Of a stretch of 64,000 nt of DNA, positions 14,039-64,000 are shown one piece after another. Below the pieces are notes generated by a model. That model did not search any database. It was not told the origin of the DNA and saw only the letters and a program-made list of their open reading frames with translations. The position numbers and the translations under genes were made by a program. This DNA comes from Deuterostichococcus epilithicus (lineage: Eukaryota > Chlorophyta > Trebouxiophyceae > Prasiolales > Stichococcaceae). Each line of letters begins with the position of its first letter. Within the stretch, counting starts at the first letter, position 1. The stretch spans positions 248,001 through 312,000 of the forward strand of contig JAVTLE010000001.1 of the NCBI GenBank assembly GCA_033439295.1. Reading direction: 5' to 3'.

Positions 14039-17000
14039 AGCTGCTGAAGGTCACTGCAGCAGCCGCTGCTGCTGCTTTCGTCCCCCATGCCGCCGCCGTC
14101 GCCGCTGCTACTGTGCACTTGCTACCTGTGCCTGAGCCCTGCCGGTCGGTGCCAGCTGTGCATGCTGGGGCCATTGCTGACAAGGGACGCTTTCCAAGGT
14201 GGCTCCGTCGCCCTACATGCAGATCAAGTGCACGGACCTGTTCGAAGACACCGCGGTCCAGGTGTTCAACGAGTGCGCAATCAGCAGCAACGACTGCGTG
14301 CCGCAGCGCATCGACAGCAACAAGGAGTGGCCGGTAAGCGGTCTGCTGCCGCATCGCATGCTGCTGTGAGCAATCCGCCTTGCCGGCGATTCAGCATGCG
14401 GACCGCTCCTGATGCGAGGCCCGCTCTGCCAGCAGTGCCGGTCCTGCCTGTCGGTGCGCATTGCTGCGTCCGGTCAGTGGTGTGCCAGGCCTCTCGCGCT
14501 TTTAGTTGGTCACATGGGACCTGCTGCCTTGCTGCACGCAGGTGCCACCAGAGTCGGCACTGGATAAGAGCTTCGACCTCAGCAGGTTCACGGGGCGCTG
14601 GTACATTACCGCGGGCCTCAACCAGCTGTTCGATGTGTTCCCCTGCCAGGAGCACTACTTTGGCGTACCACAGCCAGGTCAGTACCGGCCGACAAAGTGC
14701 CTGTGCTCGTTGTGTGCACCTTAGCAAGCTATGGCCCTTCGTCGCTTGCTGCATGGCCCCTGCCATGCCTGCCGCTGAGCCTCCTCATATGCTTAATCTG
14801 TGCAATGTCTGGCGCACTAGCAACCCGCATAGTGTGCTAAAAATTGCGCTGCTCACTCGTGTTTGGGCGTTTGTTCTGCTGGTGTCTCTCTGCTTTGAGA
14901 GCCTGCCTGCGCTGCAATGTCAGTGCATCAAGCAGGGCGTGAATCCAGCTGAAGACATGGTAGAGAGCGCACCCACAGTGACTCAGGAGGGCTGGAGGTG
15001 TAGCACAAATACAAGCACCATGTTCCACCCGCATTTGCCAGGTTCGCTGCTGACACCTGCCCTTGCCGCAGGCAAACTGTATGGAAGGATCAATTGGCGC
15101 ATCCCGAAGGGCGAAGACAACTTCATTGAGCGCACCACCATACAGACCTTCAACCAGCAGGAGAACCCCGCCATCCTGAAGAACTATGACAATGCGTGCG
15201 CGCCCATGCCCCATGCTGACATGCCTGACGCCATTGGGGAGTAGGCTCCGCTCTCGTTGATATGGCACTGCCGTCGCAGGCTGGCAGCGTCCCTGTCAGC
15301 ATGCGCAAAAGAGACGCCACTGCCACGCCCAATAAGTGTCGATGAGGCCGCCAGCCTCTTCCTCCCGTCTAGTTTCCCCTGTTGGGCAGCGACCAGCGCC
15401 GCGTGCGCCTAAAGTTCGATTCTGGTGCCGTTGTGTGCGCAGGTACCTAAACTACACGGATGACTGGTGATCCCTGTTTTGTTGCCACCGCGCATCCCTT
15501 CCCATCCGACCTGTTGTTGGCACCTGCTGCTTGGCGTACTGGTGTACTGTGAGGCACATCAGGTGGTGGCATGTCTGCATGCGGCGTAGTCGCAGCCATC
15601 TGTTGACCTATATGGTGCTGGCTCAGGTATGTCCTGGCATCCAAGCCAGACGAGTATGTCCTGGTCTACTACAAGGGCAGCAACGACGCATGGACCGGCT
15701 ACGGAGGCGCTACAGTGTACACGAGGTGCGTGCCTGCCTTCAAAGCTGTGCTGCCAGCTCGGACAGGTCCCATTTGCAGTGTACACGCACAGAGCCCTTG
15801 TCCGAGAGGGGCCGGGGTTTGCACATGTCAGCTGTCCGATGCGTATGCACTGGCGACCTGTCGACCTGCCACTGTCCTCCTGCGGCAGCCCACGCTGCAG
15901 TCTTGAGGCTCTTCCCACGCTGCAGTCTTGAGGCTGCTCCTCGACACCTGGCCTGCCGGAAGCGATGTGCGGATGTGCGTGTGAGCTGACCGGCGTCGTT
16001 GCCCGCAGGGAGAAGGAGCTGCCGCAGAAGTACGTGCCCGAGATCCGTGCGGCGCTGCAGAAGATCGACCGCCGCTGGGAGGACTTCCAGCTGACAGACA
16101 ACAGCTGCAAGCCGCGGCGGGGCGCGCGGTCGGCCATCGAGCGCATCGGGCGCGCCTTTGAGGCGGTGAGGCGGCCAGAAGAACATGTTCACACCCTCTC
16201 ACGCGAGCCAGCTGGGGCCTGAGGCGTTTGCATTCACAACTAGTCGGCACTCCAGGACCGGAGCAGTCCCGCATGGAAAGCCCTCAGCACGGAGATCCTG
16301 CATGGCACACTGCCCTTGGACTGTTGCCCGGACCTGCCCCGGCAGCCTGACCATCCCTGCCTCTGCCTGCACCCGGTCATCTAACAGCACACGAAAAAGC
16401 GGGCACTGGAAGCTGGCCTTGTCGTATGGCATGCTTTGTGCTGAGTGGTAGGCATTCAGAGTCGGTGCCACGACATGGCGCCTGACGGGCTGATCGTGCG
16501 TGCGCAAACCAGCCTGGGCGCCCTCATGCCGCAAGCAACCCCTTGCAACATGCGCGCAGGGCGTGGGAACCGCTGAGGAGGAGCTGGGGGATGAGAGCGC
16601 AGTGGCAAACGGGCTGCGTTCTTTTGGGCGCGGGTTGACCACCCTGGAGCACCAGCTGACGCCGGACTCCCAGAAGGAGCAGGCGAGTCCGCACCTGGGT
16701 CCATGCCCCGCTTGTGCATGCTTTCGCGGCAGCCTGCTGCTGAGAAAGGTGTGCCAGCCAGGGGTTGCGGCAGGCTGGTGGCTGTGGAGGTTTGACGGCT
16801 GACCGCTTTACCTGTTTAGCAGACCAGCGATGATGCTGAAACCGAACAAAGACCTGCATAACTGGACCTCGTGCAGTGCTGCACTACACGAAAATCGTCG
16901 TCTACAACACACACGCACACCGTTGTGACGTTTTTCGGCGCTGGCATCATGTAGGCGCCGCCCAGCAGTGAGATGGAGGATGCAGAACGGTACTTGCGGA

Positions 17001-41005: not shown

Positions 41006-42316
41006 CCCTTCGCAGCTGCCTGCAGCTGGTCACTAGCGGCACCGCCGGCTGCTGCGGGGGACCAGGAAGGTGTGGCGCAGACCCCTGCGCCCTGCAAAAT
41101 CACAGTGGAAGGGCAGTCCAGACGTGCCGCAAAGGGTGCTTGACACACTTAGCAGGGGTGACGCTCTGCTGTAGCTACTGCAAACACAGCACAAACATGT
41201 CCGGAGTGCCTTCCCTGCTGCAGAGTCCGTTGCCTCCGGAAATTTCTGCCAGGTCCCAGCCAATGCTCAAAAGCAGCTCAGCTCCATGCTGTGCGGCCCC
41301 ACCCACGCTGCCATGCACCAAAGTCATGGGGTCACTGAGGAGGTGATCCAAGATCCACGGTGTGGGCAGCACCTCAATGGGGGCTGCGCCGCTGTTCAGC
41401 GGCGCCGATGGCGCCGGCGTCTGCCTCTGCAGGGCCGCGCGCTCAGCCCGCAGCGCGGCAATGTCCTCCTGGTGTCGCCGCAGCTGCGCCTCACGCCCCG
41501 TCACACGGCCGTAAAGCGCACCGTTAGTGTCGCCTGCGGGTTGCAGTTGAGGCGGCGGCTTGAGCGGGGCCGGGCTGCCGGCATGCGTGCAGACTACGCC
41601 TGGCCTTCGCACCCCATGCTCAGGCATGCGCATTCGACCCAGCTATGTGGGAGTAGTCCCAGCTTTCGCGGCTTGAGAGCACCAGACTTGATGCGAGAGG
41701 GAAGCGTACGCAGGGCGGCGACGTTGCCGGCGAGGCCCTGGAGATGGCCCTGTTGCTGCTGACTCTGCAGCGTCAGGCGACGGACATCGTGCTCAAGGCC
41801 GGCGATGTAAGCACGGCGCCGCTGTTTGGACTTCGCCGCCGACTGCCGGTTGGCAACTGCGTGCTGCGGCGGCGCTGGCGCAGCCGCCGACCAGGCCGCG
41901 GGAGCCAATCTCGCGGCTGCAGCATTGGGCGCCAGCCGCAACAGCACGGGCATGGGCACGGGCTTGAGTGAGGGAGCCTGCGTGCAGGCGGTGCCGGCGC
42001 CCGGGGCGGCGAAGGGCGCAGTAGGGGTGGGCGCAGCTGCCAGTGCCACTGCCGAGCATGTAGCCAGTTGTGAGGTGCCGCTGCTGCCGCAGCTCTTGCT
42101 GCTGCTGTCTGGACTGGCGTCGCTGCCGCTGGCGGGCACGCCGCCGGCCGTGCAGAAAGCAGCGCTGCCCATTTGTGTCGCTGAGGGGCAGATCCCCGCC
42201 GTGGCGCTGCTGATGTCCGACAACGACTGCCGCTTGACACCTCGCATGTGTGCGCCCTCAGTCCTCCCCGGGCCCGGGCACGCAGCGGCGCTGGGTGCCG
42301 GTGCCACTTGCATCAT
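40009..42316 (-). CDS. bZIP transcription factor with polyQ tracts (bZIP-2), group-I/VIP1-like
   Basis: Nuclear DNA-binding regulator. Three exons in coding order, 42316-41710, 41533-41193 and 41091-40009, close to 676 aa. The basic region ANRQSAAKSKQRRRAY has N-x7-K instead of N-x7-R. That is the hallmark of plant group-I bZIPs such as VIP1 and RSG. The zipper continues across the first intron (LEHDVRRLTLQSQQQQ, then EAQLRRHQEDIAALRAE). The long C-terminus is Ala/Pro/Gln-rich with two polyglutamine runs, suggesting an activation region. The start is the first ATG pair (42316). The frame is open further upstream to a TAA near 42428, so another first exon is possible. The donor of the second intron (after 41193) is a weak GTGCTG and is the least certain boundary. 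Confidence 0.8.
40141..40185. repeat. CTG/CAG triplet run encoding polyQ in bZIP-2
   Basis: About 15 CTG triplets on the plus strand encode a run of roughly 14 glutamines in the minus-strand bZIP-2. A plus-strand poly-leucine open frame over it is a shadow. Confidence 0.9.
40975..41001. repeat. Second CAG run encoding polyQ in bZIP-2
   Basis: About nine CTG triplets on the plus strand encode a second, shorter glutamine run in bZIP-2, followed in the protein by a polyproline stretch. Confidence 0.85.
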
Positions 42317-43379
42317 CAGGTCCTCGGAGGCTGGGGCGGCGGTCGGCGGCTGCGGCTGGGCCACAGGCGCCTGCTGCAGCAGACTGAGAGTCAGGCGGCG
42401 GTCGAGTGTGGCCGCGTGATGCCCTTACGAGGGCTGTGCTGCGTCCCTGCCCGCAACGCCCGCCTGGCCTGAACAAGCGAGGCACGCCACTCCGGTCAAG
42501 TCTTGGAGCTGTCACTTCTGGGACACGTATACGTACGCGTCAGCGTACAAAAAGCCTCACCGTCCGAGGAACAGCCGACTCGGAAGATCAGGTGTCTGCA
42601 CGTGCGGCTGTATGCGAATATTACAGGCGCGAACGAGCGCTGAATTCGGTTCCAGCAGTCGACGGCCTGATTGGCTCTCCAACTGCAGCGAAGATGGGCG
42701 CTGGGAACGTTGTGGCTGTTTTAGAACGATAAGTGCCTTGTAAAACTATCTTTTACGTACTCTAGCACCAGCTGTTCAAATGTTCATGTGAAGCCGCGGC
42801 CTACGGACAGAACTGCGCCTCTGCACACGATACGGCTCACACAAGCCATGTGTAAGGTGTACTGCGCGGCTGTATAACTGCAGCACCCGCGGCAATTCGC
42901 ATGACGGTCCCCGTCAGGACATTCGACCCCTGCTGACTATGCAAGGGTACGACATGATACCAACCACAGCTTGCAGGGTGGCCGAAGCAAACTGAGAATT
43001 GCTTAGTTGTCAACAGATTGCGGCGCTGCGCCTTTGCGGACCCAAGTGCCGTTTGTTCAAGCCTGTCAGTAGGCTCCACGCGAAGCACTCAGCATTTGCT
43101 GTGGCATTCACCCTCTCCGACCCGGGACGTTCGAAGCATTGGCTTGCTTGACAAGCTTGCTGCCAGCGGGTCTTGCGTGGCTCGCGAGCTTGCGCTAAAG
43201 TTTGCTGCGCCTGATCAGGGTAGGGCGATTTCAAACCCGGCGACTGCAACGGCGTCGCGATGTGAGAGACCAGGCGTCGCCGCAGGGAGGCCCATACACG
43301 TCTGATTCTTCACAGATTCAGCAGCGCTTCTAGCCGAGACGGTCGGCTTCTGCAGACAAGGACACATATTGCGGCGAGC
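42317..43379. promoter_or_regulatory. Divergent intergenic region between bZIP-2 and the CCT gene
   Basis: The two regulator genes are transcribed away from each other across about 1 kb. No supportable exon is seen here, although an upstream bZIP-2 exon cannot be excluded. No defined element is claimed. Confidence 0.45.
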
Positions 43380-47769: not shown

Positions 47770-49997
47770 TCAGGCCAATGCTGCGAGTAGCGCCACCGAT
47801 GCTGCGGCAGCCAGCGCCAGCATGCTGCCAGCCTGCAGACAGCGGGGTCAGACAGTCTGGGAGCCAGTCTTCAGACTTCCTGTCTCTGCCGGGTGAGATC
47901 ACAACAGGCAGGCTTGATACACATGTGGGCTCCAGTGAGCATTCGCTGCCAAGTGAGACGCATGTAGGGTGTGGAGGCGGTGGTCTGGGGTGCAGCGGTG
48001 CAGCAGCTTAAATGTCCAGCATTCTGCAGCCCAAAGCCGCAATTCGACATACAATTCGCTATGTTGCATGGCAAATGTCGTGCACGTTCAGCAACGGCTT
48101 CTGGCTGAAGCACAGCACGACTCACGTTGCGGGCAACCGACTGCGGCGCGGGGGCCGGCGCCAGCGCAGGCGCCAGCGCAGCGGTGTCGACGGGCGCCGC
48201 TGCTGGGTTGACGGGCGACGCCGCTGGCGCGACAGCCGTCGGTGCCACTGCGGGCGTGACTGCCGGCGCGGCCGCCGGCATGAGCACTGCCACGGCCGGC
48301 GGCGGCATCACAATGATGCCGGGCGCTGCCGCAGGGGCCGTGGCAGGCGCGAGCATCGACGGGGGCGGACCGCCGAGCAGGCCGCCGGCTGGGGGCGCGC
48401 CTGCCAGCGGGCTGGCTGCAGCAATCATCTCTGCGAGCGGCGCCAGCGCCGGCGCAACGGCGACGGCAGCGCCCGGCGATGTCGCATTGCTGTGCACATT
48501 GAGACAGCGGCGTCAGCAGCGACGCACACAAACCGTGGCACTAGGTGAAGAAGAGCAGACTGCACCTGCTCGCAGCAGGTCGCCAGGAGGCTTGTTTCAT
48601 GCAACGAGTCAGCCTGTTTGGATCGCAGTAGCTGCACGAACCCAGAACAAAGCTACTGTTTGCACAGGCAGGCGCTGGCCGGAGGAGAGACGCACGCTGC
48701 CAGGGTGTAGGTGACGTTGCATGCTGCAAATATCATCTGACTGCGAGCAGCAATGCAACAAGGGTCAATACGTCCTGAAAGCCCAAAACGAAGACTCGAG
48801 GACACGATGCATCCTGCTCGCATCATCTGCGCCAACTTGCGACGGTAGACCCTCATCTGCCATGATGTTGTGGGTACTTACTAGGCCTGTGAAGTTGTTG
48901 GGTCAGATGCTAGCGCATTGATGCACCGCTGCCCGACCTGCATGACAGTGTACATATGTGACCAACGTCTCTTAGCAGCAATGCATTCGTTCCGCAGCAT
49001 GTGCATCTGTTGCAAGGCTGGTGAGTGGCACAGCGGCGCCAGCGACGGTGCTTAACAGCCACGACACAGGCCGGCGGCACACGTGAGGATCTTCACTGTG
49101 CCGGCGCTACTGCGGCCGCTGTTTTGATCGATTCCCTTATAGGTCTGCACATTCAACAGGCGCCCGCTCTCTAAAGCCGAGAGGCCGGGTCCTTGGGGCG
49201 CCCACCGTGACAAAGGCTGTGGCGCATTGCACCGGGCAGACCAGGCTCCCCTGCATCGGCTGCAGCCCCGAGCAGTCGTTCGTCACCGCCGGCCCGGTAT
49301 CGCCCGCCGCCGTGCACGCCACAATGAGCTCTGCAGACAGGCACGAAGGGACCTTGATACAAGGGAAACCTCGCGCCGCACGCAAACCTTGCCGCTTGCA
49401 GCGTGTCGGCCTCCAGTGCTGCACTGCTGATCCAGCCCGCAAGACGCGTGGTGTCGGCGTGTCGCAGACCAGGTCTCGCGCAACGGTCGCAGACTTGGCA
49501 GTCCGAAGACAGCCGGCTAAGGTCGCATTGTGGTCCGCAGGACGCTGCCGCCACAGTGGTGCTGTGCTGAAGTGCATCAGCAGGTACGGTGCGACGGTTG
49601 AGCAGGAGCATGCATAGTCAGCGCCTGCACGAGATGCGTTTGACAGGTGTGGACTACCCTGCCTGTTGCAACTGCTGCTGCACCACACCAGCCACACAGC
49701 AGCTGCACAGCTGACATCCATGTCTGCCAGCACGGAGCAGGACCAGCGTCGCTGATACTCTACGATTTACAGGCAGGCCTGTGACGCCATGATCACAGCG
49801 TTGCCAACGTCCAGCACGGCTGCTGCTGCTCGCAGGAGCCACGGTGCAGCGAGCTGCCGACTGCTGGTGCCACCCACATGAACAGGACCAGAGATGTTCT
49901 CGCCTTCTGATTGAGCAGCTGCTGGTTGCGCAATGAGACCCAGCATCAGCACGCATGCCAGTCCTGCGGCTAGTCGGCCAGATCTATAGCGCCCCAT
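47770..49997 (-). CDS. Secreted GPI-anchored six-cysteine protein A
   Basis: Family not recognised. Six exons in coding order, 49997-49889, 49330-49206, 48937-48882, 48740-48696, 48489-48126 and 47832-47770, close to 253 aa. A signal peptide (LAAGLACVLMLGLIA, cleaved near AAAQ) is followed by one six-cysteine domain with spacing C-x13-C-x11-C-x3-C-x10-C-x20-C, including VCPVQCATAF and YQMIFAACNVTY. A 120-residue Ala/Pro-rich stalk follows, then a C-terminal hydrophobic tail (GSMLALAAAASVALLAALA) that ends at the stop. That layout is typical of GPI-anchored surface proteins. It is divergently paired with gene B and shares its exon phases, so the two are ancient inverted paralogues. A wall or surface role is inferred only. 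Confidence 0.8.
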
Positions 49998-50369
49998 GCC
50001 GCTGCGTGACCTCCTTTGCGACGCTGTAATTCCCTCCGTGAGCCGCAGTATCGGCTGGATGGAGCTTTGCGAGCAGGTGGGTCCCGTGGAAACGCTGCGT
50101 CTTCTCGCTGCGGCTGCACTGACGAGTAGTCGAGTACGGTCGGTCGGTGAGCCCTGTTAGTCACGGCCAGACTCTCAAGACTAACTGACCTAGCAACAGC
50201 CGGGAACGAGGGGGGATGATGTGGGGGATGACGATACAAAATCCGGTTTCGGTTTTGCCATGTGGGCTGCGGCATTCCAGCAACCGCGCCGAATCTGCAA
50301 CGTGAGATCAGCTGTTGTCACCGCTCGTGACCTCCTGCAACCGCTGCACGGCCCCTTGACACAAAAAAC
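49998..50369. promoter_or_regulatory. Divergent promoter region of six-cysteine genes A and B
   Basis: Only 372 bases separate the two divergent start codons. The part from 50269 to the gene B start is duplicated upstream of gene C (from 55207). Confidence 0.6.
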
Positions 50370-50452
50370 ATGGCGGCTAGATCGCTGCTGGTGCTGGTGG
50401 TGGCGTTGGTGGTCGCGCTGTTCGGCTCGGCCGCTGCGCAGTCCAGCAGCGG
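50269..50452 (+). repeat. Promoter and exon 1 copy (gene B) of a tandem duplication
   Basis: It shares GCGGCATTCCAG, CGCCGAATCTGCAACGTGAG and nearly the whole signal-peptide exon with 55207-55385. Similarity also continues through the first introns, for example the CATGCGGACGGAG block. Confidence 0.85.
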
Positions 50453-53400
50453 TGAGTCACGCCTCCTTGCATGACATCCCGGCTGCCACTGCCATGCGGA
50501 CGGAGCGGTGCACTCCGCAAGCGTGCCGTGCACCTCGTCGACGGCCACTATATCCTCCAGTGGCGTGACGCTGCCTGTCTGGCAAGCAAGCCGGTCGCGA
50601 CTGCAGATGCTTGTCGCCTGTATGCCATACCGTCCTGTTGTGCGAGGTAATGCAACGTGTCGCTCCGCTGCTTGTGCCGCTGCCGCTCAGGATAACGAGT
50701 AGCTGTGGTAGAAGGTACAATCAGAGTGGGGCACTGGGGCCCCTTCACACTGAATGCGGTAACGTCGAACTCGACAACGTTTGCGTGTCCTGATGGCGCA
50801 ACGATGACCGCAGTTAGTCGCCGCGAGGCAGGTCAAGGTCCGGCCTGTCGCCCGCCACTGTCGTCGCCGGTTTAGTCAGGAGGGAGGGTCGGGCGCTGGC
50901 GCTGGGTTCAACAGCTCAGTGCGTAGATCAATTTGGCTTCCACCAAACGCGCAATTGCCGAGGTCCTGCACTCGTCTGTACAGCGCAGCCAGCGTAGGAA
51001 CCTTCGCTTGATCGGCGGCAGCACCGTCGTTCCAGCGCGGACGCCTCGAGCTGAGTCAGCTGCAAGCACTGTCTATGTCAGTCATCCAGCTCTAATGTGC
51101 TGCAGCAAGAATCATGTTGCGTCTATGCTCCTGACGGCAGCACTCCTCCTGCAATCTGGCACACTGGGTCGTACACATTGCAAACTCAAATCAACAGCGA
51201 CACCACATGCATGGGTGCACTGCGTTTTGTTGTAGCCCCGGTTCACCTGCACACAACCCGAGTGTGCCGCGGTTGGGCTGCAGTAATCAAACTAGACTAG
51301 CTGCGTCTCACCTGAAATTAGCACTCTTAGAAGTTGGCTGGTGCTCGACAGCCTCGGAACGTGCACACCGGCTGCTTGCGCCTCGTTGGTTGCCCTGGTG
51401 CACGGAGACAGCAATGTGGCTGTCTGGGCAGGGTCACTGGGTGTACAGCAATCGCCCAGCACCGATGCAGCCTGCTCCCAGGCGCCGAGGACTTGCGAAC
51501 CCCACATATGGAGCACAAGCAGCTGCTGACACTTTGGGTGCTCTGACCCGCCATGCTGCGCGGCAGCTGCCAGGCAAGCCATGCGGCGAGCGGCACAGCA
51601 CGCAGCGGCACGCTGCTGAGAGTTCCCTGGCTTTGGATATCGGATGCTCATGCTCCAGCACCAGCTGATCTGCAGGCCTGACGGGGGCCGTCGGGGCGGC
51701 AGCCTGCTTCGCCGACTCTGACAACCGGGCGGCGGCGCAGCAGATCGCGACCGACTGCAGCAACCTGGCGAGCTCCATCACCTCCTCGGGCACCAATGTG
51801 GATTTCAACTGCCCCAGCGCCTGCGGCGACGCCTTCAATGAGGTGCGCCATCACCAGACCTGCACCTGGTCCCACTTCTTCCAGCGCTGACCAGTGCCGA
51901 AGCTGAAAGTCAAGACTGTACAGAAATGCACACGTTCGGCTGCTTCACCGAGAAACATCCTGCTTGCGTGCAGCTCACGCAAAGCTGCCGGAACGAAGTG
52001 GCTTCGAGCGACACCCTCGGCTCGAGCTAGTACGCTTCAGCTGGCTCTTATGCCGCCATGTTGCCACATGCAGCATACTGCGTCCGCACCTGCCTGGCGC
52101 CCAGCACGTGTCTGGGCCCGTTGTCAATCAGTTCCATGCGAGGCAGCAACAACTCCCCATGGGCTCAAGTCTTTTTGTGCGGAGGCAGCAGAGGTGCTGA
52201 TAAATGGCGTACCCGTGCCTGCAGCCGGCTCATCTTTGACGCTTGCAACGTCGATTACTCAGCCACCGGCGGCGGCCCCTCTACACCCGCGCCCACCAGC
52301 TCGTCCACTGCAGCGACAACAGCGCCGTCCGGTGCCGGCGCCGTCAATGGGTCGGGTGAGGCGGGGCTGTCGCTAGCTCACGCTCGTAAAAGCTTGTTGG
52401 GGCTGTCTTACTGCTCTGTTGCGCTCAGACATCAACCACTTCAGCAAGTTTCGGCAAGCCTGCCATGACTGGCACTACCCTTCAAGGAAGCGCTGCGCTG
52501 CGCTGTGCCTGCGCCTGTGCCTGCCAATGGCCACCAAGTTGCATGCCCGGCTGCACCACGCAGATGAACCTCTTTCCACCACCCGTGCTGACTGGTTCCT
52601 GACATTCGTCTTGCCACTGCAGATTTTACGTGCCTGACGACGTCGGAGAACATCGATGCAGGCCAAGACTTTGCGCGGTACTGCTCGGGCCTCATGCCAC
52701 AGGCAGACTCGGGCTCCGACTCTGGCATCTCCATCGACTGCCCCGCGCGATGCGCAACAGCCCTCCAGGACGTGCGTCGCTGCTCATGGGCTTCTGATCT
52801 GCGATCGAAACATTTGACTTTGCTCATCTGACAGAGCGCGGCGCGATCTGTCAGCGTCTCTGCCCGCATGCCTGACACCATTCGCACTTCCGAGCGCCGC
52901 AGCGGCATTGCAGTTTCCTCAGCAGTGGTAGGCAGTCGCAGGCCTCGACTTGGTGAGCGGCAGTGCAGCGGCTCACAACATAGAGGACTGCTTGTGCAAG
53001 GGGGTCCTTGCCAGCGTGGCTTGTGGCATTGCAGCGCCGCCCGCTGTCACTTGCACTGACACACGTGTTCAGACGGCTGTCGAATAAGGCATTAAGCTTC
53101 ACTGTGCCTGCAGGTGTCATCAGACTGCATCGACACCATTGCCAGCAGCGACACATTCGGCTCAGTCTAGTGAGTGCGGCGCACGACATCCCCTGCTCCT
53201 CGGTGGCCCTCGCACTGCCCTGAGGCTGCAGCATCCGTGAAGCAGCGCTGACTGTGCAGCTGTCGCGCTAACTCCTGCTCAATAAAGCCATTCTGTCTCG
53301 CAAATGCAGCCGGCTGATCTTTGACGCCTGCGACGTGAACTATGACACATCCTCCAGGTGAGGGTCTGGAAAAGGGGATATCGAGGGAAGGCCCCTCCAA

Positions 53401-54476
53401 CCTTGGATCTCGCTGTGAAAACCTCGACAGACACAACACCTGATGCCGAGTTGCATCCCTTCGTTGCGGCTGGGCTGCCTGCGAAAGCCTGCCGGCAATG
53501 CTTGCTGCCTCACATATATGCTGCTGGCGCCCAAAGCAGCATGGCGCTGTGGCCGCCGCCTTTGCATGGTGCAGTTGCTTTTATTGTTGCTGTGCATGTG
53601 ATCCAAGGAAGCAATGCCCAAATTCTAAGCTTGTCATCCTTTGTACCGCAGCAACAGCACTGATAGCCCCGCCTCCGCACCCTCCAACGCCGAGGAGCCC
53701 ATGGCTGCTGGCGTGCCTGTTTTCAGGTGTGCATGTTATGCCGGCATGCCGGCGCAATGACAGCTGCGGCAGAAGCATGGCGCTAGGTTGTTGCGTCCCC
53801 CAGCTGATGCTGCGCTGGGCAGCCGGCTGGACGGCACCCTCGCCTGGACCCTGTGTTGTGGCCGTTTGCTACTCGATCCTGCATGTGTTCGTGTTCGCAC
53901 AGTCTGTGCCGCTTGCGCCGCAATGCCCCTCATGAGCCAAGGACAGCCAGCAGGAACAACTTGTGTTCACCATGCCGGGCGGGCATATCAGGTCCTAAAA
54001 TCATAGAGGCGTCGTGCTGACAATTGGCCAACCCTTCATGCGCAGCCCTATCGAGTCTCCCTCCGAAGCCGGCGCCTCGCCGACGATGTCCGCTCCCACT
54101 GCTGCCCCCACGCCCGTCATCACTCCGATCTCAGCCGACGGCCCCACCCCGGCGCCCACCGCCGCAGCCGTCACAGACGCAGGCGAGCCGGCACCTGCGC
54201 CTCAAGCCGCATCTCACACGGTGAGTGACGCCTCTGGCGCAGTGCTGTGCGTAGTGGTGTCTGTTAGCAGAGCCCGGCCTCTTGGCATCTAGCAGCCTGC
54301 TCCCCCACTGGCAGTGGCCAGCAGGCATTCAGCGGATGTTGCTTGGCAACCGTGCATTTGCCCTGCTGCTGACCATCTCACGGACAGTGCCCTATTGTGT
54401 CCTGCAGGCAAGCGCCGTGGCGCCCGTCGGGGCGCTTGTTGCCCTGTTCGCTGTGCTGCTGACGCTAGTGACCTGA
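50370..54476 (+). CDS. Secreted GPI-anchored protein B with two six-cysteine domains
   Basis: Same unrecognised family as A and C. Ten exons close to 335 aa: 50370-50451, 51676-51842, 51974-52029, 52225-52355, 52623-52771, 53114-53169, 53310-53357, 53652-53726, 54046-54220, 54408-54476. The signal peptide (SLLVLVVALVVALFGSAAAQ) is followed by domain 1 (C-x16-C-x17-C-x3-C-x10-C-x20-C; NCPSACGDAFNE, YRLIFDACNVDY). A short Ser/Thr/Pro linker leads to domain 2 (C-x16-C-x18-C-x3-C-x10-C-x20-C; DCPARCATALQD, YRLIFDACDVNY). A Pro/Thr-rich stalk and a hydrophobic GPI-type tail (VGALVALFAVLLTLVT) end the protein. Each domain is built from three exons in the same phases (1, 0, 2), so domain 2 arose by exon-block duplication. 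Extracellular anchoring is inferred. Confidence 0.82.
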
Positions 54477-55302
54477 AACATGAGGTACCTGCAAGTGCAG
54501 CTGGGTGCGGCCTGCAGCTCTGACTGTCAGCTGCCTATGGACTGCGCCGCCCGCCTGCCGAGCAGGCCGAATTTAGTTTCCTGAGTGCTTTGCCAGTGAG
54601 CTTGAAGCAGGCTTTGCGGCCCGAAGTTGGAGCACCGAAACATGGAACGAAGACTGCAGCGGCGGGCAAGCGGCGGGTCTGCACGCGTATGATGTTCGTG
54701 GCACGCGTGTGCGGATGGCTGAGCTCGCTAAGCTCGCTGCGTAATCGAGACTTAATTTTGAAGCCTGTGTTTCGTGAAGCGTGGGTGCAACGGTCTGTCA
54801 CACTCGGCTTCTCGTCTTAGCCCTGTCGGGAAAGCTGTGCGTGTCGGCGCAGGGTCAGTGACGGTGCATGGTTCACCGCCTCACTTCTCGTCCGTTCATC
54901 CACCGGCTCTAGTAGCATCCATTTGTACCTTCGAATGTGTCGGCATCTCAAGGGCTTTCCTGTGGACGATGTGGACGTCCGGCGGCACACCGCCACAGCC
55001 GTGCTGAGGTGTATCAGCGGGTGCGGGCTGACGGTCGCGCAGCAGCATGCAGACCCAGGCTGTGCCTACACGAGGTGCGCTTGGCAGGTGCGGACGATTC
55101 TGCCTTCGATCTGCCTTCCACGAATACGGTAGGTCGGTGGAGCAAATATGTCGGAAACGAGGGACGAGTCATGCGACAAAATCTAGTGGCTCTCCGACTT
55201 GGCCCTGCGGCATTCCAGCGCCGAATCTGCAACGTGAGATCAGTTTTAATCACCGCTTGCGACCGTCGTGCACGTGCTGCGCGACCCCTTGACACGCATA
55301 CT
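54477..55302. other. Intergenic region between six-cysteine genes B and C
   Basis: This contains the 3' flank of gene B, which resembles the 3' flank of gene C, and the duplicated promoter of gene C. No other gene is supportable. Confidence 0.55.
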
Positions 55303-55385
55303 ATGGCGGCCCGATCGCTGCTGGTGGCGCTGGTGGCGCTGGTGGTTGCGCTGCTCGGCTCGGCCGCTGCGCAGTCCAGCAGCGG
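55207..55385 (+). repeat. Promoter and exon 1 copy (gene C) of a tandem duplication
   Basis: Partner of 50269-50452, offset by about 4.93 kb. Start codon, signal peptide, donor site and first intron are all clearly alignable by eye. Confidence 0.85.
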
Positions 55386-57876
55386 TGAGTCTCCCCTTCT
55401 CGTATGACCTTCCGGCCGCCACTGACATGCGGACGGAGTGATGCACTCCGCCGGCGTGCCGTGCACCTCTACTTTGACATCGACCGTGTTCTCCGGTGGC
55501 GTGACGCTGCCTGTCCGGCGATCGAGCTGGTTGCAACTGCAGCTGCTCGTCGCTTATGCTCCAATACATTCTTGTTTTGCGAGGGGATGCGACGTGTCGA
55601 TTCGCTGCTTGTGCGCCTGCCGCTCAGGATAACTAGTAGCTGTGGTAGAAGGTACAGTAAGGGTCGTGGGGCAGTCCCTCCACTGTGAACTCGTCGGTGT
55701 CGACAGCGATAGCGTGTCTGGATGCGTAACGACGATCACGGCCAGTCGCCGCGAAGTGGGCTTAGATCCGGTCAGCAGTCGCCAGCTCGCCCCTGTCGTC
55801 GCCGGTTCATCAGGGCGGGTCGGGCACCGGCGCTGGGTTAGTCGCTCAGTGCGTAGGTCAATAAGGCTCCTCATGAAAGCGCAATAGCTGAGTATTACAC
55901 TCATATCAAACAGCGCAGCCAGCGCAGCAACATCTACTTGTCAGCATCTGTCGTTCAGGCGCATGCGGACGCCTCGAGCTGAGTCAGCTGCAAGCACAGT
56001 CTTCGTCAATCCTACGTCCATGCTGCAGCAAGAATCACCTTGGCTCTATGCTGCTGATGGCAGCACTCGTCCTGCATTTCCTTTGACTGGCAGCACGGCA
56101 GGACTGACTGGCACTTCTTGGGTCGTACATATTGCAGATTTAGATCAACCAGCGACACCACAGCATGGGTGCACTGCTTCTTGTCGTAGTTCACCTGAAC
56201 ACGAGTCAAGTGTGCCGCGCAAGGCTGCAGTAATCAAGACCGACTTTTTGTCACCTGAATCTGAGACTCCCAGAAGTTGGGTGGTGATCGACAGCCATCG
56301 AACGTGCATACCGGCTGCGTGCACCTCGTCGTTCGCTTCTGTTTGAGAGGTGCACCCGGGGATAGCAATGTGGCAGTCCAGGGCGGGGTCACTGGGTGTA
56401 CTGCAACCGCCCAGCATGGCAAGCAGCCTGCTCCCTAGCGCCGAGGACGTGTGAACCCCACATGTGGAGCACGAACAGCTGCTGACACGTTGGGTGCTGC
56501 TGGCACGCCATGCTGCGCAGCAGCTGCCAGGCAAGCCACGCGGCGAGCGGCACAGCACGCAGCAGCGTCCTGTGAAGAATTCGATCCGGATGTCGGCCGC
56601 TCACGGTTCAGCACCAGCTGCTCTGCAGGCCTGGAAGGCGCGCTCGGCGCGGCCTCCTGCTTTGCCGATCATGCGCAGCAGATCGCAACCGACTGCGGCA
56701 GCCTGGCAAACTCCATTACCTCCTCGGGCGGCGAAGTCGCCATCAACTGCCCCAGCGCCTGCAGTAACGCTTTTAACGAGGTGCCCGTCGTTTGACCTGA
56801 ATATAAGCACACATCTTCCAGCACTGACCAGTGCCAAGTCAAAGTGAAAGATTGTACAGACATCGCACACGACCGGATGCTTCACTTGAGCATGGTTCTG
56901 CCTGTGCGCAGATCCAGCCAAGCTGCCGAAACAGCGTGGCTTCGGACGACACCCTTGGCCCCAGCTTGTGCGCTTCAGCTCGCATGGCTCTCATGCCGTC
57001 ATGCTGCCACATGCAGCATGCTGCAACCGGGCATGCGTGGCGCCCACGTAGATGAGCTCGATGTCAACGAGTCCTACAGCCGTGCGAGGCAGTGATGACT
57101 CCGCACGGGCTCAAGTCTCCTGATGTACTGCCGACAGAGGTGCTGAAGAAGTGTGCCCTTGCCCGCAGCCGCCTCATCTTTGACGCTTGCAACGTCGATT
57201 ACTCTGCTTCCGGCGGCTCCTCCTCTACCCCCGCGCCCTCCGATGCCGGCGTCTCGCCGACCCCCACCGAGGCCCCCACGAGCGTCATCATTCCAGTCTC
57301 AGGCGACGGCCCCACCCCGACGCCCTCCAGAACCGTCATCCCAATCTCAGCCGATGGCCCCGCCCCGGCGCCGACAACGGCCGGCCCCACTGAGGCCCCC
57401 ACGAGCGTCATCATCCCGGTCTCAGGCGACGGCCCCACCCCAACGCCCTCCAGGACCACCATCCCTATGTCAGCCGACGCCCCCACCCCGGCACCCACCG
57501 CGGCCCCCACACCCGTCATCACCCCAATTTCGGCTGACGGCCCCACCCCGGCCCCCACCGCCTCCTCCGTCGCAAGCGCAGACGCAACCGACCCCGCGCC
57601 CGCGCCTCAGGCCGCGTCTCGCGCGGTGAGTGACGCCTCTGGAGCGGTGCTGTGCGCAGCGGCGTCTGTTGTGGCTGATCATCAGAGCCCGGCCTGCTGG
57701 CGGCTGGCGGATGCCAGGCAGTCTTTTGGTGGATGTTGCTTGGCAACTGTGCGTTTGCCCTGCTGCTAACATCTCATGGACGGTGCGGCCCCTCCTGTGT
57801 CCCGCAGGCAAGCGCTGTGGCGCCCATCGGAGCGCTCGCCGCCCTGTCCGCTGCGCTGCTGACGCTGGTGGCCTGA
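55303..57876 (+). CDS. Secreted GPI-anchored six-cysteine protein C with proline-rich stalk
   Basis: Same family as A and B. Five exons close to 271 aa: 55303-55384, 56629-56780, 56912-56967, 57169-57625, 57808-57876. The signal peptide (LVALVALVVALLGSAAAQ) is followed by one six-cysteine domain (C-x11-C-x17-C-x3-C-x10-C-x20-C; NCPSACSNAFNE, RLIFDACNVDY). The stalk is long and Pro/Thr/Ser-rich with internal repeats (APTSVIIPVSGDGPTPTPSR occurs twice), resembling hydroxyproline-rich glycoprotein stalks of algae. The tail (IGALAALSAALLTLVA) fits a GPI signal. It is a recent tandem duplicate of gene B, whose second domain it lacks. The role is unknown; a wall or adhesion function is only a guess. 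Confidence 0.85.
57266..57453 (+). repeat. In-frame repeats in the proline-rich stalk of protein C
   Basis: A block of about 65 bases at 57266-57330 recurs almost unchanged at 57389-57453 (offset 123 bases). Shorter SADGPTPAPT-like units follow. The offset is a multiple of three, so the reading frame is kept. Confidence 0.9.
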
Positions 57877-58834: not shown

Positions 58835-61800
58835 ATGCCGACTCCTCGGAGCAGTCTCGGCCGTATTGGCGTCCTGCTGCTGTGCCTGGCAGCGGCCGCT
58901 GCGGCGTCGGCGCCGCAGCGTAGCAGGGTCCTGCCGCTCAGGCGGCGGGACGGCGTCACCAGGGCACGGGGCCTGCTGCGCAACGCGTCGCTGCCGCTGC
59001 ACGGCGCCATCCGCGACTACGGGTGCGCCGGCGTCTTGTGCGCACCTGCCAGGAGTCCTGACGCCTTGCCCAGTCTCCGGCCAGGACACCGCTTCCCTGC
59101 TGGTTGCCTGCTGGTGATCAAAGCCCAGCTGGTCGGCAGCAAGCCTGCTGTACATGCTGACCTCCAACACAGCCGTGGAGCGCCCTCGAAAGACGGTGGT
59201 GCTGGCAATGCAGGTACTTCTATGCAGCGCTGACGCTGGGCACGCCGCCAGCGGTGTTTGCTGTCATCGTGGACACCGGCAGCACCATCACCTACGTGCC
59301 GTGCTCCAGCTGCGGCGGCGCCTGCGGCCCGCACCACCAGGTGCTTCCTGCTGCCAAACGTCCTGCACTCTCCTGCAACGACATCGGGGACCAAGCTGCT
59401 CTCTGAACCCTAGACCCATGGCGGCGCACGCCGTGCACGACCGCGCGCAGCGCCGCTGTTGGTGTAATGATGTGCGCATGCTCCCTGCCGTGCGCGCCCC
59501 CGGTCTTGCTCACTGCATTTCCCTGAGGCAGTGCAACGCCTCCCGCGCCAGCCTCCCAGGTGGGAGAGTCCCTCAGCAGCGGCGCTGGCCATGCACGCAT
59601 CCGGGCACCCTCGGCTCCCTGTGACTTGAGCAAACGGTGACTCGGGCAGCTGCTGGCGCTCAGGGCTCGGCATTCGACCCGGAGGCCTCGCAGTCGGCGG
59701 CCTCTGTGCCCTGCGGCAGCGCGCAGTGCGCCTGCGGCCGGCCCGCGTGCGGCTGCTCGCCGGAGGCAGAGTGCACTTACTCCCGCACCTACGGTGATTT
59801 CATGTTTTATCTTATCAGCCTTGTGAGTCGGGCAAGGCGGCTGTGAGGAAGGATGCAGACTGGTCAACAGAGAGAAATGCGGCCAGGAGAAGATGTGCTG
59901 CCTTTGTGGCCAAGCGTGATGTCCAGGCTGCCTGGTAAGTGGTCAGGCGCTGCATGGCCGTCACAAGGCGAAAACGTGTTGGTTTTTTGGTTCCATCTGA
60001 GGCGGCGCTCAGTACGTCTGCGGGCGGCGGCCATGGCAGTGCATGTGATGCTCCTGCACAGCCTCCCAGCACCAGTCTTGGATAGCACTGATCCTGTGCA
60101 GTGACGCGCTCCTGTTCCCTCCCGACGTGCAGCGGAGCAGAGCAGCTCCTCGGGCATGCTGCTGAGCGACCTGCTGCACCTGCGCGACGGGGAGGAGCCC
60201 GTGCCGGTGGTGTTTGGCTGCGAAACGCGGGAGACTGGGGAGATCTTCAACCAGGCGGCCGACGGCATCCTGGGCCTGGGCAACTCGCCCGTGTCGCTGA
60301 TCAACCAGGTGCCCAGACACCCTGAGCCCTGAGGCGAAGGAGGAGAGGTAGCCGTGAAGCATGGAAACGCTGCAGAGGTTTGGAAGGTCCTGTTCCCTCG
60401 CGGCTGGCAGGACGCCAGCATGCAGCACCTCCTGTGGTGTGGCAGAGGCCGTTTTGGATGCGATGTCGTGAGGACGCAAGGCGGTGGCATCGGCCCCTTC
60501 TCGAACGGGCGCTGGAAGACGCCAGCGTCATGGGGAGCACTTTGAGTGACCTCCGCCGCCTGTCGGGACCTGTCTTGTGCTCCTAGCTCCCTGCACCTGG
60601 CAGACGCGGGTGCCATCCTATGCTCCTGCCTCAGCTGGCTGGCGCAGCAGTCATGGAGGACACGCTGGTGCTGTTGGCATGAACGAAGTGGTGGCGCAGC
60701 GCACGCCCAGTGCACCGCCAAGCCGCCCAGCCCAGCAGCTGCTCTGTCCGGTGGTGTTGCCGTCGTGCCGCCAAGCCGTTCTCACTTTCTAAACCCTAGA
60801 CCCTGTCGAAACCCGGTCACAGCTGGCGGACGCGGGTGTCATGGAGGACACCTTTGCGCTGTGCTTCGGCGGCGTGGAGGGCGGCGGCGCCCTGCTGCTG
60901 GGCGACGCGCCGCTGCCGGCCGGGACCGCGCTGCTGCACACGCCGCTGCTGGCCAGCCGGGAGCACCCGCACTATTACGTCGTGGGGCTGGACAGCCTGG
61001 GCGTCGGCGGCACGGAGCTCGAGGTGCCGCAGGTGCGCAAACACGAACTGATGTACTTCAATTTCGATTTCGACTGCCTCGAGTCGCTGGTGGTATGACG
61101 GCGCACACCCGGGCGCAGTTCAGGGATGGCAGCACACCCCACGCTGCAGGGCGGGCATGGGAAGTCTGGCGGTGGCGGCGGGCACAGCTGTTGCCAGGCC
61201 CAGATGCATATATGGGTCTGCGGACACCAGCGGGTGCAAGCATGCAGGGGTCCCACCGGTAGGGCCGTGGCACGCTGCTGGAGTGGCGCTGTCTCCTTCT
61301 GGCCTGCAGCCGCTCGTGCCATCTTCTGATGCTGACCTTGAGATTCAAATTTGCTCCCATTCTTCCTTCCTTTCTTCCATTTGTTTTTGATCTTGGCATC
61401 AGGGCACCCATGGGCAGGGCTACGCTGCGATGCCGGAACAGGGGCACGGCACTCGCTCGTTCGCCCCACAGCTTGTGTGGCCCCAGATGCCATCGTTGTA
61501 AGTGCCGACCGATCCTGACCCTGCAGGGCACCTACCAGCAGGGCTACGGCGCGGTGCTGGACAGCGGCACAACGTTCACCTACCTGCCCTCGGCGGCGTT
61601 TGCACCGTTCCTGCTGGCGGTCAAACAGCATGCGCTGTCGCGCGGGCTGGTGATGACGGACGGCCCCGACAAGAACGTGGGCTGCGCCCGCCCCTCCATG
61701 ATTGTCCACTGTAGATTGACCAAAGACAACGTTCAAGACACAATGCCCGAAAACACAGGGCCGGCAGCCCCTCCTGCCCTGCTGCCGCGCGCGGGCGGGG

Positions 61801-64000
61801 CCGGCGCCTGCGGCGGCCACCGACCCGGCGAGCAAGGGTGCCTTGCCCTGCTGCTTCCACGGGACCTGACGTCGCCAGCGCCGCATCCACAGCGTCGCTC
61901 GACCGGCCTGCCCGTGTGCCGACTGGCATCCCCACACCACATCAGATGTCGGCCTGCTGCACCTTGCCGCCAGGCAGCAACGACCCGAGTCTCATGCTGC
62001 TGTCGCTGCGACGCAGTTTCCGGACATCTGCTTTGCGGGCGCGCCCGGGCTGGAGGCCGCCGAGCAGCTGCACGACGTGTTCCCCACCATGGACCTGCGC
62101 TTTGCCGGCGGCGTGGCGCTGCGCGCGGGGCCGCTCAACTACCTGTTCGTGCACGCGGCGCAGCGCGGCGCCTACTGCCTGGGGGTCTTCGACAATGCAC
62201 AGCAGGGCACCCTGCTCGGCGGCATCACCTTCCGCAACGTCCTGGTGCAGGTGCGGATCCATTCACTGTGGTGTCAACCATCTGGCAGTGTCGCCACCAG
62301 TCGTCTGACGACTGCAGTGATGCCACACCCTGCTTGGCGGCAGCACCCTCCGCGGCGTCCTGGCTCAGGTGCGGTTCCCTCACCGGTGTTCCCCGTCTGG
62401 CAGTGTCGTCACCAGTCGTCACAGACTGCGGTGATGCCACACCCTGCTTGGCGGCAGCGCCTTACGCGGTGTCCTGGTTCAGGTGCCAATGCCTTTCTAG
62501 CCGTATGAATGTCCTGCAAACCGGCTTGCACTGGAAAGCAGACGGTTGCACGCAATGCTTCATTTGGCCAGGCGGCACCGCCTTCCGCTGTGTGCTGATC
62601 CCGATGGGAGGCTCCAGCCAGCAGTCGCCGCGGTCTTTGGCTGCGTTCCTGGCTCGCACAGGAGGGACGTAAGTGTTGTCGCCCAAACGTGCTGAACGGA
62701 CTCTTGCTGGGATGCCCCCATGTTGTGGCCAGGAGCTTCACTATGAGATCTTTCGCTTGGCATCCAATCTCGCAGCGCTGCGGCCGGCCGTCTGAACGCT
62801 TGCCGGTCTCCATGCTGCAGTATGATCGGAGGAATGGCAGGGTGGGCTTCGGAAGGGCAGCCTGCCAGGCGATCGGCCTGGCGGCGCAGGCGGCGCCGTG
62901 CACTGGCCGCGGGGGCGACGGCGCCCCATCCGATGGGTCGCGGGAGGACCTGGACTGCGGCGACGGCCTGGCGACGCCGTTGGAGGCGGCAGCAGCCGCC
63001 GCCAGCGGCGGCGCCCAGCAGCAGCAGGCCGGCTCGGGGTCCGAGTATGGCTCAGGCTCGGACGCCGAGGAGGGCGGCGGCGTCGTCGAGGCGGTCGCGG
63101 AAGGCGGAAGCGGCGCCGGCGGCGTCGACGGCGGCGGCGTGCTGGACCCTGGCGGGGCTGGGCTCTCCAACCCGGGGTCGGGGGGCCCCGGGGCGCTCAA
63201 CCCAGTGGCGATGGACGATGCCGCAGCGGCGGAGGACATTGATGTGCCCGTCATCGGCGCGGCGGCGGCCGGCGGCGGCAGCAGCATCAAGCGCAGGTGG
63301 GCTGCTGCATTCTGCCGCCGGGACGAATGCTGGTGTCCTCGCCATCACTATCAGTCATCTCCTGTGCCAGTTGGCTGTGTGGACAGCCTCTGGAATTCCA
63401 AATGTCGGCTAGGAGGCGATCAGTATTTCGATAGTTCCCAGTGGTGAAGGCCACAACCTCCACAAGTGAATTCTAACACTCATCCACTGCAGAGCCCTCA
63501 TACTGGGGCTGGGCGGCGCGCTTGGAGGCATCGCGGCGCTGGCGCTGGTGGCCGCCATTCTGGCACTGCTGGCGCGGCTGCGGCGACGCAGCACATTTGG
63601 CAGCAGCTCCTCACATGCGGTAGGCAGTTGACGGCATTTGTGCTGACATGCTCAAACTCTGTCTCAGGGCACACCTGCGGCACATTACAGCGTCTTGTGT
63701 TCAACCTACTGTTCCACCACCTGGCCGCCTGTGCTTCATACACATGTGCGCCGGCAAAGGGAGGGGGCAGGGGGTTGTGGAGGTGTGGCAGAGGCTGCTG
63801 GTGAGACGCCCAGGCCATTCGCAAAAGCTGTCGCAACAGCTCATGCACACGAAGGCTCCATTGTGGCGTCGTCGACCCCGCAGGCCGCCATGTCTCCCAG
63901 GACGGCAGAGGAAGGCACCGGTCTGCTTTCTGGCGAACACGGCAGCACCGGCGGCCCCCGGCGAGAAGCGCAGCTGTCCGCCATGCCAAAGGCGGCGGCG
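58835..64000 (+). CDS. Membrane-anchored aspartic protease, pepsin A1 / nepenthesin-like (partial, cut by window end)
   Basis: Secretory endopeptidase. Exons in phase: 58835-59022, 59214-59340, 59664-59793, 60133-60308, 60823-61032, 61527-61676, 62017-62250, 62821-63296, 63493-63619 and from 63884 to beyond the window. A signal peptide (IGVLLLCLAAAAAASA) leads to the first catalytic motif DTGSTITYVPCSSC (Asp codon 59273-59275). A Cys-rich nepenthesin-type insert follows, then ADGILGLG and the second catalytic motif DSGTTFTYLP (Asp codon 61560-61562). The domain ends with GAYCLGVFDN and YDRRNGRVGFG. The layout closely follows plant A1 proteases that carry a C-terminal transmembrane anchor. After the protease domain comes a Gly/Ala/acidic linker of about 120 residues, one transmembrane helix (GGIAALALVAAILALLARL) and a cytosolic tail that runs off the window. 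The introns contain copies of exon ends (see 62322-62487). Confidence 0.92.
60589..60680 (+). repeat. Degenerate copy of exon 5 start inside intron 4 of the protease
   Basis: The sequence CTGGCAGACGCGGGTGCCAT, and shortly after GTCATGGAGGACAC, mirror the start of exon 5 at 60823 (CTGGCGGACGCGGGTGTCAT, then GGAGGACAC). It is not in a splice-consistent frame, so it looks like a decayed partial exon duplication. Confidence 0.65.
62282..62487 (+). repeat. Tandem 115-base repeat carrying copies of exon 7 end and its donor
   Basis: Two copies, offset about 115 bases, lie in intron 7 of the protease. Each contains CACCCTGCTTGGCGGCAGC and ends in CAGGTGC, matching the last ~50 bases of exon 7 (to 62250) and its 5' splice site. 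Confidence 0.85.

Follow-up and report, generated by a model that had tools for sequence, protein, structure and literature searches.

Genes at the locus

A 64,000-nucleotide stretch of the Deuterostichococcus epilithicus genome, hereafter the window (bases 248001-312000 of contig JAVTLE010000001.1, here contig C1), contains three neighbouring genes, A, B and C, whose predicted products combine a putative signal peptide, one or two copies of a six-cysteine domain, a proline-rich stalk and a hydrophobic C-terminal tail. Spliced models place gene A on the minus strand (49997-47770) and genes B (50370-54476) and C (55303-57876), whose exons join at canonical splice sites, on the plus strand. Gene B has 10 exons and encodes 335 residues with two domains, gene C has five exons and encodes 271 residues with one domain, and gene A also encodes one domain. 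The four domains, their positions and strands, their CPxxC core and (F/Y)xxIFxAC end and the cysteine pattern C-x(11-16)-C-x(11-18)-C-x3-C-x10-C-x20-C had been described in a sequence-only reading of this DNA, and all were reproduced by the spliced models.

In gene B, exon 1 (50370-50451) encodes the putative signal peptide. Numbering the cysteines of a domain C1 to C6, domain 1 is divided among exon 2 (C1-C4; 51676-51842), exon 3 (C5; 51974-52029) and exon 4 (C6 and a linker; 52225-52355), and domain 2 among exon 5 (C1-C4; 52623-52771), exon 6 (C5; 53114-53169) and exon 7 (C6; 53310-53357). The stalk begins in exon 8 (53652-53726) and continues in exon 9 (54046-54220), which is rich in Pro, Ala and Thr, and exon 10 (54408-54476) encodes the hydrophobic tail and the stop codon. 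Exons 2 to 9 are also supported by comparison with the paralogues, with composition as further evidence for exon 9; the tail was assigned by hydropathy. Gene C follows a shorter plan, with a putative signal peptide (exon 1, 55303-55384), domain exons for C1-C4 (exon 2, 56629-56780) and C5 (exon 3, 56912-56967), an exon that joins C6 to the stalk (exon 4, 57169-57625; compared by alignment with gene B exons 4 and 9) and a hydrophobic tail with the stop codon (exon 5, 57808-57876; also by hydropathy).

Gene A is read on the minus strand. Its first exon (49904-49997) encodes a putative signal peptide beginning MGRYRSGRLAAGLACVLMLGLIAQPAAAQ... and has an uncertain 3' end, because the intron 1 donor has several phase-1 candidates, including GC after 49904 and GT after 49889 or 49874; the other four of its five introns are GT-AG. 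Exon 2 (49206-49330) carries C1-C4 and is also recognized by a profile match, exon 3 (48882-48937) carries C5, exon 4 (48696-48740) carries C6, exon 5 (48126-48489) encodes an Ala/Pro-rich stalk recognized by composition, and exon 6 (47770-47832) encodes the hydrophobic tail, recognized by hydropathy, and the stop codon. Genes A and B are arranged head to head, with 372 bp (49998-50369) between their start codons.

The wider family

A search of the whole genome (46.79 Mb in 21 contigs) with the domain sequences yielded three further genes, each with two domains. Genes D (contig C1, about 1236671 down to 1232399, minus strand) and E (C1:1237053-1241296, plus strand) form a divergent pair, and gene F lies on the minus strand of another contig (C15:1256961 down to 1252668). 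The family comprises at least six genes and at least ten domains. The earlier description of a three-gene cluster holds for the window, but the family extends beyond it on contig C1 and to contig C15; it is a coherent set of paralogues encoding surface-type proteins. The genome search was run exon by exon, so distant members could escape it.

When the part of gene D that encodes stalk and tail was used as a DNA query, five loci were returned, corresponding to genes B to F. The gene A domain, used as a single query against the whole genome, matched only itself at the sensitivity of that search. A profile of the other nine domains scores it at 52.0 bits, whereas the best scores were 11.6 bits among 2000 shuffled sequences and 21.0 bits among 2000 shuffles with the cysteines fixed. 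The score lies far above both sets, and the membership of gene A is therefore not due to chance.

Seven other IF-x-AC sites in the genome (C1:2560682, one on C7, two on C9 and one each on C11, C12 and C13) were rejected as chance occurrences. One of them, C9:1492302, reached 10.5 bits (E 0.35), against at least 16.2 bits for the accepted exons, and apparently lies inside a gene on the opposite strand. The remaining six gave nothing at E up to 1 in a profile search of the window and 66 loci. An initial pattern scan was too loose, with hundreds of matches per strand, and was not used. TGTAA is a polyadenylation signal of green algae; its occurrence in this family is inconsistent, and it is present within 900 bases in two of the six genes.

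Splicing and selection

All 40 introns of genes B, C, D, E and F are GT-AG, and the exon phases are identical across the four two-domain genes (B, D, E and F). In all 60 exon comparisons among these four genes, 28 of which involve unequal lengths, the lengths differ by a multiple of three, while the same holds for 12 of 51 unequal intron pairs; this exon-length and splice test is partly circular, since the exon ends were placed visually and with regard to the reading frame. Exons are more similar than introns in all six gene pairs (77.9-85.8% versus 68.5-77.3% identity, values that predate a 3-base correction of one gene F exon).

The ratio of nonsynonymous to synonymous substitution rates (dN/dS) for whole genes was 0.33-0.41 in all six comparisons among B, D, E and F and, judged by these ratios, the family is under purifying selection. 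In comparisons with gene B, dN/dS was 0.17-0.32 for the domains and 0.41-0.46 for the stalks, the domains being the more tightly constrained each time. The notion that these genes are merely open frames of GC-rich DNA is very unlikely to be correct, given the low dN/dS and the splice sites, phases and frame that the paralogues keep through changes in length.

The six-cysteine domain

The domain is about 75-90 residues long and contains exactly six cysteines, none of them adjacent, in each of the ten copies. The x3, x10 and x20 spacings, which had been called invariant from the window copies, are kept in all ten; the C2-C3 spacing of 11-18 is true of the window copies but reaches 24 in one copy elsewhere. 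As had also been claimed, each domain is built from three exons in identical phases; for the window's four domains and the six others alike, the phases of entry are 1, 0 and 2. Besides the cysteines, the least variable stretch is A-S-x-x-T ... F-x-A-C-x-x-x-Y, running from C5 to just beyond C6, which is a candidate binding surface. A helical period of hydrophobic residues was detected in the C3-C5 segment (equalled by 3 of 2000 shuffles) and more weakly in the C2 segment (54 of 2000), and none was found in the C6 segment (374 of 2000 shuffles as strong) or the short C5 segment (635 of 2000).

Searches of Pfam, NCBIfam (with four domains), PHROGs, PDB sequences, IMG/VR and the GTDB species genomes gave no accepted match. 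The 36 pattern sites in IMG/VR and the 21 in GTDB species genomes and contigs included no relatives. Three weak Pfam matches were rejected for covering only part of the domain: DUF4141 (best E 0.0052, two of ten domains), LDL lectin (E 0.055, one of ten) and DUF2729 (E 0.14, one of ten). PilX_N (E 0.017), which covered part of the leaders, was rejected as well. Where a cut-off is shown for such Pfam matches, the scores fall under it. The best NCBIfam match (a Zn-ribbon model, E 0.013, one of four domains) and the best PHROG match (E 0.022) were dismissed on like grounds. The sole PDB match, CV-IIL lectin (E 0.85), aligned residues 9-40 and paired no cysteine. Literature searches over open-access full text listed no paper that describes the six-cysteine domain in its title or in the opening of its abstract. 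The domain appears to be new with respect to the libraries searched, including the Pfam check that had been proposed for it, and within these libraries it belongs to no named family by any accepted match; the architecture around it is of an already known kind.

Two families of small cysteine-rich proteins bear on what the domain might do. Lipid transfer proteins (LTPs) with a glycosylphosphatidylinositol (GPI) anchor join a small cysteine-rich secreted domain to a GPI tail, an arrangement like the one proposed here, and a few non-specific LTPs (nsLTPs) have repeated domains, according to the literature. The same sources give nsLTPs an eight-cysteine motif with adjacent cysteines, unlike the six non-adjacent cysteines found here. 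Elicitins and GPI-anchored elicitin-like proteins of oomycetes are described there as small extracellular sterol binders, some annotated with a GPI site. Elicitins have six cysteines, paired C1-C5, C2-C4 and C3-C6, and a sterol cavity.

It is conceivable, though doubtful, that the domain is a diverged member or structural equivalent of such a lipid- or sterol-binding helical disulfide family (elicitin-like or GPI-anchored nsLTP-like) and serves as a surface lipid carrier or sensor. The shared architecture, the close C3/C4 pair and long C5-C6 gap, as in elicitins, and the helical period at C3-C5 and weakly at C2 favour this. The domain's spacings are, however, shorter than those of elicitins, and neither elicitin (PF00964) nor LTP families appeared for the ten domains in hmmscan at E up to 10, a setting at which the HMMER filters lose most matches above about 0.1. 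Genome-wide searches with PF00964 and LTP_2 (PF14368) also returned nothing, but carry little weight because their controls matched nowhere.

Leader, stalk and tail

Leaders and tails were assessed by sequence and hydropathy, the gene A leader by eye. In B to F the leader is strongly hydrophobic (peak hydropathy 3.5-4.1) and has small residues where cleavage is likely. The stalks consist of 64-70% Pro, Ala, Ser and Thr (PAST) and make up 0.47 of the A protein, 0.50 of the C protein and 0.24-0.32 of B, D, E and F. The tails have a Kyte-Doolittle mean of 2.2-2.6 across the last 16 residues in all six proteins. The Pro/Ala/Thr-rich stalk and hydrophobic tail noticed in the sequence-only reading are borne out by these values.

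The tail exon is 63 or 69 bases long in all six genes, and the tail reaches the stop codon with no charge after it. A hydrophobic tail that ends at the stop without trailing charge is typical of a GPI signal, and the tails are candidate GPI-anchor signals. It is unlikely that the proteins are not GPI-anchored, the tail being a plain membrane anchor or left unprocessed. In favour of that reading, the GPI transamidase complex was reported absent from Coccomyxa subellipsoidea C-169, while the uncharged tail up to the stop codon and the constant tail exon argue against it, as do the homologues of three transamidase subunits reported from every other chlorophyte with a genome sequence at that time (PMC3446292 for both statements).

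For arabinogalactan proteins (AGPs), a published account gives thresholds of at least 42% PAST over the whole protein, at least 55% partial PAST, a glycomodule index of at least 0.15 and at least five glycomodules (PMC5266747). With overlapping counts, all six proteins have 48.5-56.8% PAST, 67.9-76.4% partial PAST, an index of 0.29-0.38 and 25-48 glycomodules. With non-overlapping counts at three joining distances, all six have an index of 0.20-0.36, 10-25 glycomodules and 67.9-84.3% partial PAST, under a glycomodule joining rule of our own that differs from the published Finding-AGP script. The further region that a chimeric AGP demands beyond its PAST-rich part is the six-cysteine domain in all six. 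By composition, all six proteins are chimeric AGP-like, with values above the thresholds.

Chimeric AGPs from plants and from green algae (fasciclin-like, phytocyanin-like and xylogen-like) have a leader, a folded domain, PAST-rich glycomodules and a C-terminal GPI-type tail, a layout that the present proteins resemble. A GPI-anchor signal belongs to classical AGPs and is frequent in chimeric ones, and AGPs carry arabinogalactan chains on hydroxyproline. Unlike them, the present proteins show no fasciclin, phytocyanin or xylogen-type domain in Pfam scans of the proteins and domains. Pherophorins (DUF3707) of volvocine algae are extracellular-matrix proteins with a Pro-rich rod and cysteine-bearing domains; they too differ, as the same scans gave no DUF3707 match. 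A genome-wide DUF3707 search found nothing, but is uninformative because its control matched nowhere; fasciclin gave two short matches elsewhere in the genome, barely above the cut-off. Judged by the lack of pherophorin matches and the two marginal fasciclin matches, the protein families common on algal surfaces seem to be rare or divergent in this genome.

A mainly structural wall glycoprotein, in which the Pro-rich part does the work and the domain is a crosslinking or folding cap without a specific ligand, is a possibility to be held only tentatively. It would suit the A and C products, about half of which is stalk, and the C stalk is extended by a 123-bp tandem repeat in exon 4. Against it, the comparisons with gene B show the domain to be under heavier purifying selection than the stalk.

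Family history and gene pairs

In all 200 bootstrap trees, a single branch separated the domain-1 copies from the domain-2 copies. This split fits a domain duplication inside one gene before the gene was copied, and on the simplest reading of the trees intragenic domain duplication preceded the gene duplications. The ancestor of genes B to F probably had two domains, one of which was lost in C. Gene C exon 4 matches gene B exon 4 at 88% over its first 73 bases and gene B exon 9 at 77-88% in pieces between bases 68 and 452; it resembles a fused counterpart of these two gene B exons, and the second domain of gene C seems to have been lost. The first and last introns of gene C are 79% and 83% identical to those of B, versus 63-67% for D, E and F, and C is therefore probably a tandem copy of B.

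The head-to-head distances of the A-B and D-E pairs are nearly equal, 372 bp and 381 bp (C1:1236672-1237052), which suggests that both intergenic regions may act as shared bidirectional promoters. For genes F and C, no head-to-head partner from the family was found. Alignment of the upstream regions revealed a AGCCGGGAAC-type element upstream of genes B, D and F. Genes D and E are 95% identical in exon 9, with a synonymous divergence (dS) of 0.23 in the stalk and 0.41-0.44 in the domains; being closer at exon 9 than in the domains is the pattern expected from gene conversion at the 3' end.

Proposed function

The explanation favoured here, with moderate confidence, is that these proteins would be membrane-anchored, stalked binding modules at the interface of membrane and wall. 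The leader would route the protein to the endoplasmic reticulum, and the six cysteines may pair as three disulfides round a partly alpha-helical core. The stalk, presumably O-glycosylated in the arabinogalactan manner, would be stiff, and a GPI anchor would replace the tail, so that the domain would stand clear of the plasma membrane, either within the wall or reaching through it. Candidate ligands are a wall glycan, the surface of a partner cell or a small hydrophobic ligand. Differences in domain number and stalk length might tune reach and avidity.

Several observations weigh against this reading, among them the by-eye exon ends, the missing helical period in the C5 and C6 segments and the Coccomyxa report. 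Among D, E and F, domain dN/dS (0.19-0.42) overlaps that of the stalk (0.34-0.46). Support for the branch between domain-1 and domain-2 copies was 89/86, below the tool's strict mark, and the gene A row was too long for placement in the domain tree. An improbable alternative is that the domain represents a new fold family of one algal lineage, acting as a receptor for self or partner recognition (mating, aggregation or symbiosis), with some members co-expressed as head-to-head pairs.

Neighbouring sequences

Elsewhere in the window, positions 15065-15196 (plus strand), within the open reading frame 14048-15244, match the violaxanthin de-epoxidase lipocalin domain PF07137 at 25.3 bits (cut-off 25.7). 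The genome also gave 39 exon-level matches to light-harvesting protein genes, and these matches together with the near-cut-off de-epoxidase match point to a photosynthetic eukaryote as host. Positions 41594-42424 (minus strand) encode a bZIP basic region and zipper (PF07716, 24.7 bits, above the cut-off of 22.3). The frame at 61263-62672 (plus strand) includes the sequence DSGTTFTYLP, which resembles an aspartic protease active site by eye, and this frame has no Pfam match at E up to 0.01.

Significance

To our knowledge, there is no good catalogue of wall and surface proteins for unicellular algae other than the volvocine group. The six-cysteine domain is a candidate for a new Pfam domain, and a compact, well-defined family of six genes whose domain signature and exon structure are clear would offer a tractable test of how such algae may display binding modules at their surface.

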